From contig JAQURC010000003.1 in the NCBI GenBank assembly GCA_028715785.1, forward strand, positions 155,423-190,419: a DNA stretch of 34,997 nucleotides. Reading direction: 5' to 3'. Positions 4,054 through 6,049 of this stretch are shown one piece after another (the stretch's first letter is position 1; each line of letters starts with the position of its first letter). Made by a program: the position numbers and the translations under genes. The notes under the pieces are model-generated. The model was not told where the DNA came from. It saw nothing but the letters and a program-made list of their open reading frames with translations, and searched no databases. Source of the DNA: Candidatus Omnitrophota bacterium (GTDB taxonomy: Bacteria > Omnitrophota > Gorgyraeia > Gygaellales > Profunditerraquicolaceae).

Positions 4054-4082
4054 TTGAAATTTGGATATTTATGTGGCATACT
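4054..4082 (+). promoter_or_regulatory. Candidate sigma70 promoter driving the ncRNA candidate
   Basis: TTGAAA (4054-4059), 17-nt spacer, CATACT (4077-4082). Confidence 0.5.
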
Positions 4083-4088
4083 TATTTT

Positions 4089-4192
4089 AGAGAGGTGAGA
4101 GAAGTTAACGTAACAGGAGGCTCAGAAACGATAGCGAAGGCTATTAGGCCTATCACCTACAAGAAAACCCCGGTAACATTCGGGGCTTTTTT
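4089..4192 (+). ncRNA. Candidate stand-alone structured small RNA of ~100 nt, family not recognised
   Basis: Promoter-like TTGAAA-17-CATACT upstream; helices AGGTGA (4093-4098)/TCACCT (4153-4158), GTTA/TAAC (4104-4107/4111-4114), AGGCT/GGCCT (4118-4122/4147-4151), ATAGC-GAAG-GCTAT (4131-4144); then an intrinsic terminator. Confidence 0.45.
4164..4192 (+). terminator. Rho-independent terminator
   Basis: CCCCG GTAACATT CGGGG followed by CTTTTTT on the plus strand. Confidence 0.75.
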
Positions 4193-4199
4193 GTTTGTA

Positions 4200-4319
4200 G
4201 TTAAGCACAGTATCTTTCCCTAAAGATGGTATCACATTTTGTGATACCAAGCTTTTTACTTCTTCATCCGTAAGCTGAAATATAAAATCTTCTAGCCTCC
4301 TTCTAAAGAGGATCACCAA
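4200..4319 (-). pseudogene. Remnant of an ORF6N-domain gene
   Basis: RRLEDFIFQLTDEEVKSLVSQNVIPSLGKDT resembles the ERFPEDFMFxLxxEEhxxLxSQxVISS segment of the intact ORF6N gene at 5489-6049; N-terminal ~50 codons and the YAFTEQGVAMLSSVL core are missing. Confidence 0.6.
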
Positions 4320-5248: not shown

Positions 5249-5464
5249 ATGAATGCTTCAGCCGGAACACAATTGGGTAAGAGGATTAAAGAGTGGCGTA
5301 GGAAACGGGGGATTACGCAGGAACAACTAGCCGAACTTATAGAAACTAGCTATAAATACATTCAAAGAATCGAAGGGAAAAACCCTCCCGATATACGATT
5401 AACTACGATTTTAAGACTTGCCAAAGCATTAAAAATAAAACCTGCTGAGCTGTTGAGGTTTTGA
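5249..5464 (+). CDS. XRE-family helix-turn-helix regulator
   Basis: LGKRIKEWRRKRGITQEQLAELIETSYKYIQRIEGKNPPDIRLTTILRLAKALKI. Confidence 0.9.
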   Translation: MNASAGTQLGKRIKEWRRKRGITQEQLAELIETSYKYIQRIEGKNPPDIRLTTILRLAKALKIKPAELLRF

Positions 5465-5488
5465 CCCATCTCTAATACATAATATAAA

Positions 5489-6049
5489 CTATAGACCATT
5501 TCTATTTATCACTACCTCATCTTTTTTAAAACCCCGCCTTGGAGCGCGAAAACCTTCTACTACTCTTTCTTTCAATCTAGGCGGCTTCATCAGTTGACGG
5601 ATCGCTTCAAAAATATTCTGTATTGCTTCATCATGCTTTCCGACTCTCCGTTCCAGCTCTTCTAATTTATGTATTAACTCCTTATGTGAAGATAAAATCT
5701 GACGCAATTTCACAAATGCCCGCATAATGGCGATATTCACATGTATGGCCTTTTTGCTGCGTAAGACGCTTGAGAGCATTGCCACCCCTTGCTCGGTAAA
5801 AGCGTAAACGTTGGGAGCGTGTTTCAATTTAGAACTTATCACAAATTGTGATAAGTTCATAATTTCCTCCCTCTTCAATAAAAACATGAAATCTTCAGGA
5901 AATCTTTCAACATTACGCCTAACTGCTTGGGTCAATGCGCTAGTAGCAACTCCGTAAAGCTGAGCAAGATGGTTACTCAACATGACCTTGTGCCCGCGTA
6001 TCAAGAAAATCTTCCGCTCAATCACTTCATCCGGAATGATAATTTTCAT
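5489..6049 (-). CDS. ORF6N (KilA-N-associated) domain protein
   Basis: MLSNHLAQLYGVATSALTQAVRRNVERFPEDFMFLLKREEIMNLSQFVISS...YAFTEQGVAMLSSVLRSKKAIHVNIAIMRAFVKLR. Confidence 0.9.
   Translation of the reverse strand: MKIIIPDEVIERKIFLIRGHKVMLSNHLAQLYGVATSALTQAVRRNVERFPEDFMFLLKREEIMNLSQFVISSKLKHAPNVYAFTEQGVAMLSSVLRSKKAIHVNIAIMRAFVKLRQILSSHKELIHKLEELERRVGKHDEAIQNIFEAIRQLMKPPRLKERVVEGFRAPRRGFKKDEVVINRNGL

Follow-up and report, generated by a model that had tools for sequence, protein, structure and literature searches.

The window analysed here, a 34,997-nt stretch of a Candidatus Omnitrophota genome, carries at positions 4054-4195 of the plus strand a stretch that, judging from its comparison with related genomes, is almost certainly a real and formerly uncatalogued small RNA gene, common to many Omnitrophota. 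The RNA very probably folds into a pseudoknot core, in which GAUA pairs into the loop of an AGG/CCU hairpin beside a GC-GNRA-GC tip. As the best explanation of the whole, we propose a stand-alone Omnitrophota sRNA gene acting as a trans decoy of the 30S subunit, with a probability of about 0.35. The original prediction, an orphan structured RNA that has a promoter and a terminator of its own, is strongly supported: the RNA is shared with related genomes and shows covariation, Rfam has no match and no co-directional gene accompanies it.

The promoter (4054-4082, plus strand) shows TTGAAA at 4054-4059, a 17-nt spacer, and TGTGG followed by CATACT at 4077-4082; an extended TG precedes CATACT and, according to a consensus scan, the boxes match the consensus at 9 of 12 positions. 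Transcription probably starts near 4089-4091. The predicted intrinsic terminator (4160-4195, plus strand), two-way by sequence, has a CCCCG/CGGGG stem with an A/U-pair extension and a T-run; the scan located the stem at 4168-4185 with the T-run after it. However, the same kind of scan found eight promoter-like sites in the region against 5.5 expected, and seven terminator-like sites against 2.7 expected, so that these scans alone are weak, near chance, and the case for the locus rests on conservation. In the alignment, almost all relatives within the genus retained TTGAAA/TTGAT..GGCATACT, whereas the next 30 nt or so varied; of 108 diverse members, 51 have GGCATA upstream. The score of a loose two-box promoter was little better in real than in shuffled sequences (9.2 vs 8.2), and therefore the support for the promoter comes from the aligned GGCATACT block. 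The plus-strand fold of 4080-4200 reached -34.3 kcal/mol compared to -24.5 +/- 3.0 in shuffles (z -3.3), and none of 200 shuffles was as good; the fold of the minus strand was weaker (z -1.9). The predicted combination of promoter, folded stretch and terminator on the plus strand is thus present at 4054-4195, and the transcript would extend from about 4090 to 4195, roughly 105 nt.

Searches with blastn gave one match in the own genome and relatives in 45 of 97 nearby genomes, within the genus mostly from the -35 box through the terminator. Conservation in relatives had been set as a check of the original prediction, and we consider these matches decisive for the observation. A first covariance model, built on 30 relatives, matched 113 of the 384 class genomes, and a second one, limited to the core and built from 107 diverse members, matched 111; scanning of the window with the core model showed a single copy with 66.4 bits (next-best, 15.8). 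The RNA was undetected in about 70% of the class, and therefore it is no general need of translation there. Nearly all genomes used in this analysis are metagenome assemblies, and every absence call hinges on their completeness. A pattern scan sampled one genome per GTDB species and, among the matches listed, every believable one with a named organism belonged to Omnitrophota. The matches outside the phylum (e.g., L164, L182, L190, and L204) lacked GGAGG and terminator, as did those on viral contigs; a viral or mobile origin was discarded, also because no direct repeat of the 3' end of the RNA was found elsewhere in the window. Rfam 15 showed no family at or above the gathering score in the whole window, and a loose threshold (E up to 10) yielded nothing beyond chance matches below that score.

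The own genome also contains a second, diverged copy on the minus strand of contig C4 (89874-89985), flanked by genes for a UvrD-like helicase and a cyclophilin. The 5' part of this copy, TTACTCTTTTTTGTTAACTGAAGCGGAGGA (loci L066-L071, L149, L172, L192, L203, L245, and L251), is distinct and conserved in its own right, so that there are two paralogs in the genus. In addition, many loci of the same family (L007, L008, L010, L013, L017, L018, L020, L024, and L025) show a cross-shaped repeat, roughly TTAATGAGCGGATAACTTACGGAG..CGACGTAAGTTATAGGC..GCCGTCCGCGAATTAAT, just after the terminator of the RNA; it is attC-like or REP-like.

Across the class, the order of the core is RGGAGG, 3-10 nt, GAUA, GC, GNRA, GC, 3-7 nt, NAGG, NN UAUC N, CCUN and the terminator. 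In the window, the putative 5' strand of the pseudoknot is GAUA (4130-4133, plus strand), which would pair with UAUC at 4151-4154 and is paired in 98% of the alignment cells. It is followed by the GC-tetraloop-GC tip (4134-4141, plus strand), whose loop is GNRA in nearly all relatives and GAAG here, and by a hairpin (4145-4159, plus strand) formed by UAGG and CCUA, whose loop CCUAUCA contains the UAUC strand. Core pairing was found in 95.7% of 1070 cells, compared to 26-51% when the partner was slid. Changes on both sides affected three pairs, in 44 cells compared to 15 in shuffles: 39 at the closing pair of the hairpin and five in the pseudoknot. The closing pair was AU in 29 members, GC in 22 and UA in 16, and unpaired in 38 of 107, while GAUA/UAUC changed from GC to UA or AU and from AU to GC; in seven members, mainly of one family, the first pseudoknot pair is an A-A mismatch. 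Covariation thus modestly supports the pseudoknot and the closing pair of the hairpin, being only modest because the core is nearly invariant. Part of this invariance is due to selection, since the members of the alignment were picked by a pattern that fixes TAGC, GC, AGG, TA, and CCT; only two model matches failed this pattern. The core also tolerates wobble (GC 114, GU 32), where the opposite strand would have C-A, and GNRA loops, G-U wobbles and the conserved plus-strand promoter indicate that the RNA is the plus strand.

This predicted core replaces the three-helix fold proposed originally. The two outer helices appear to be mostly lineage-specific: the AGGTGA of P1 was found in only five of 30 relatives and the P2 sequence in only two, and their strands lie in the variable, non-conserved 5' part of the RNA (4083-4115, plus strand). 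From P3, the GC-tetraloop-GC tip and the AGG/CCU pairing are kept class-wide, but AGG/CCU forms a separate hairpin. A local UAGC/GCUA hairpin seen at genus level was rejected, since it is lost across the class and has no covariation.

The RNA is surrounded by housekeeping genes of various kinds, which almost always run antisense to it. When genes were called with a simple ORF finder, antisense orientation was seen for the next gene downstream in 106 of 121 loci and for the one upstream in 116 of 123; these counts are not independent, as many of the loci come from close relatives or represent one contig counted twice. Neighbors include recG, a UvrD-like helicase gene, ychF, malQ, pyrG, msrBA, queA and a batD-like gene and, downstream, cyclophilin, zupT-like, pgi and rodA genes. 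A terminator that directly follows the fold and is two-way by sequence would suit a cis element, that is, a riboswitch or leader for a neighbor on either strand, or a two-way terminator with an antisense promoter. However, the variety and antisense orientation of the neighbors argue against a riboswitch or any other cis role, and conservation sits in the core rather than in the terminator alone, which makes a cis element very unlikely. The location in an accessory island was borne out only in part, by genes for ORF6N and HTH proteins, as recG, a Dus-type tRNA-dihydrouridine synthase gene and a phosphoglucose isomerase gene also surround the RNA. Between recG and the Dus-type gene, positions 5249-6049 of the window contain an HTH (Cro/C1 type) gene on the plus strand and an ORF6N-domain gene on the minus strand.

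Upstream of the folded core, at a distance of 3-10 nt, lies the Shine-Dalgarno-like GGAGG (4116-4120, plus strand). The SD-like ACAGGAGG had been pointed out before, and comparison confirms it: GGAGG is present in 100 of the 107 diverse members, with a variable distance to the core, compared to about 5% of shuffles. The spacing has a mode of 6 nt and resembles that between SD and start codon. The other seven members show purine-rich variants instead (GGAGA, GAGAGG, AGGGGG), which would pair less well with CCUCC. Many genes of the window carry SD-like motifs. A small ORF starting from AUA/AUG behind GGAGG was discarded by eye, as the linker varies between 3 and 7 nt, some loops contain TAA and no frame is conserved.

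On this basis we tentatively suggest that the RNA acts in trans and without Hfq. GGAGG would pair with the anti-Shine-Dalgarno end of the 16S rRNA, and the pseudoknot, placed in the position of the start codon, would block initiation there by the docked 30S subunit. By imitating an mRNA, the RNA would hold or tune free 30S subunits, and the pseudoknot and terminator may shield it from decay. A 30S-docking RNA acting in trans is favored because GGAGG is kept at SD-like spacing, Hfq was not detected and CsrA never occurs above the cut-off with the RNA. The Hfq model gave no match in 293 class genomes; in the control, it found Hfq in five of 14 known genomes. No CsrA was detected in the own genome; among the 384 class genomes, in counts that ignore kinship, CsrA was above the cut-off in 19, and in none of the 111 that bear the RNA.

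It is just as possible that GGAGG serves as a protein site or as a seed for C/U-rich targets. In the second case the RNA would be a base-pairing riboregulator independent of Hfq, whose unpaired 5' part pairs with C/U-rich mRNA sites and is stabilized by knot and terminator. A close likeness is RydC, an Hfq-dependent enterobacterial sRNA with an unpaired 5' part, a pseudoknot and a strong terminator (PMC4337610). The Omnitrophota RNA shares with it the order of exposed 5' part, pseudoknot (here predicted from covariation) and terminator, as well as a short stand-alone gene with its own promoter and terminator at the sequence level; moreover, its 5' parts differ between lineages and between both copies of one genome. 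RydC requires Hfq, however, and the Omnitrophota RNA has a sequence of its own, a GNRA-capped tip, a second hairpin whose loop pairs upstream and a conserved GGAGG, its most constant unpaired motif, rather than a longer specific seed. We regard this kind of riboregulator as rather improbable. Near-complements of one 16-nt core stretch, TTGTAGGTGATAGGCC, gave nothing useful in the own genome: the one site, with two mismatches, lies inside a coding region on the wrong strand.

The near-invariant letters of the core, conserved beyond the needs of pairing, together with the GNRA loop and the pseudoknot, would also be expected if the core were the binding site of an unknown protein and the RNA a sponge or a ribonucleoprotein scaffold. 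No conserved neighboring gene hints at such a partner, and the distribution of CsrA, a GGA-binding protein, goes against it; we judge this explanation doubtful as well.

With Hfq, CsrA, and Ffh undetected in the own genome, Hfq-dependent, CsrA-sponge and SRP readings fail. Ffh was not detected in the own genome and did not exceed the cut-off in any of 384 class genomes (controls, 14 of 14 positive), and neither the own genome nor 58 relatives gave a match to the Rfam models of SRP RNA. It is possible that the class lacks SRP or has a very diverged one. The Ffh search gave one near-full-length match (genome G260) and about a dozen SRP-GTPase-like matches. That no other SRP RNA was found by these models, and that the core has a short helix with a GNRA cap, would agree with a diverged SRP RNA; nevertheless, the missing Ffh, the absence of visible SRP domain IV loops and the absence of the RNA from most class genomes make this identity extremely unlikely.

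Other known RNAs share single traits with the Omnitrophota RNA. Pseudoknots in S15-type ribosomal protein mRNAs trap the 30S subunit and likewise have an SD-like motif beside the pseudoknot; the Omnitrophota RNA, in contrast, would act in trans, has no coding sequence and has no ribosomal protein gene among the neighbors examined. PreQ1-type and other small pseudoknot riboswitches also show a compact H-type pseudoknot near a terminator, whereas the RNA described here has no Rfam match and, as a rule, no downstream co-directional gene. CsrB/RsmZ-type sRNAs sequester CsrA through many GGA sites; an ACAAGGA-like motif is found upstream of the core, but only one GGA site (GGAGG) is conserved, not several in loops, and CsrA is absent where the RNA is present.

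A search of a library of papers found none linking Omnitrophota with SRP, a relevant small RNA or the pseudoknot RNA described here. The RNA represents an uncatalogued structured family, found in numerous genera of a large and uncultivated phylum, and its core of GGAGG and a GNRA-capped pseudoknot is open to searches and tests. With caution, we put forward the possibility that this family, specific to Omnitrophota, imitates an initiation site and acts in trans to control free 30S subunits, in hosts without detectable Hfq and, in this genome, also without detectable CsrA and Ffh. If so, bacteria that lack the usual RNA chaperone would have a dedicated initiation decoy acting in trans; even if the 30S reading is false, the family offers an entry point to RNA regulation in Omnitrophota.
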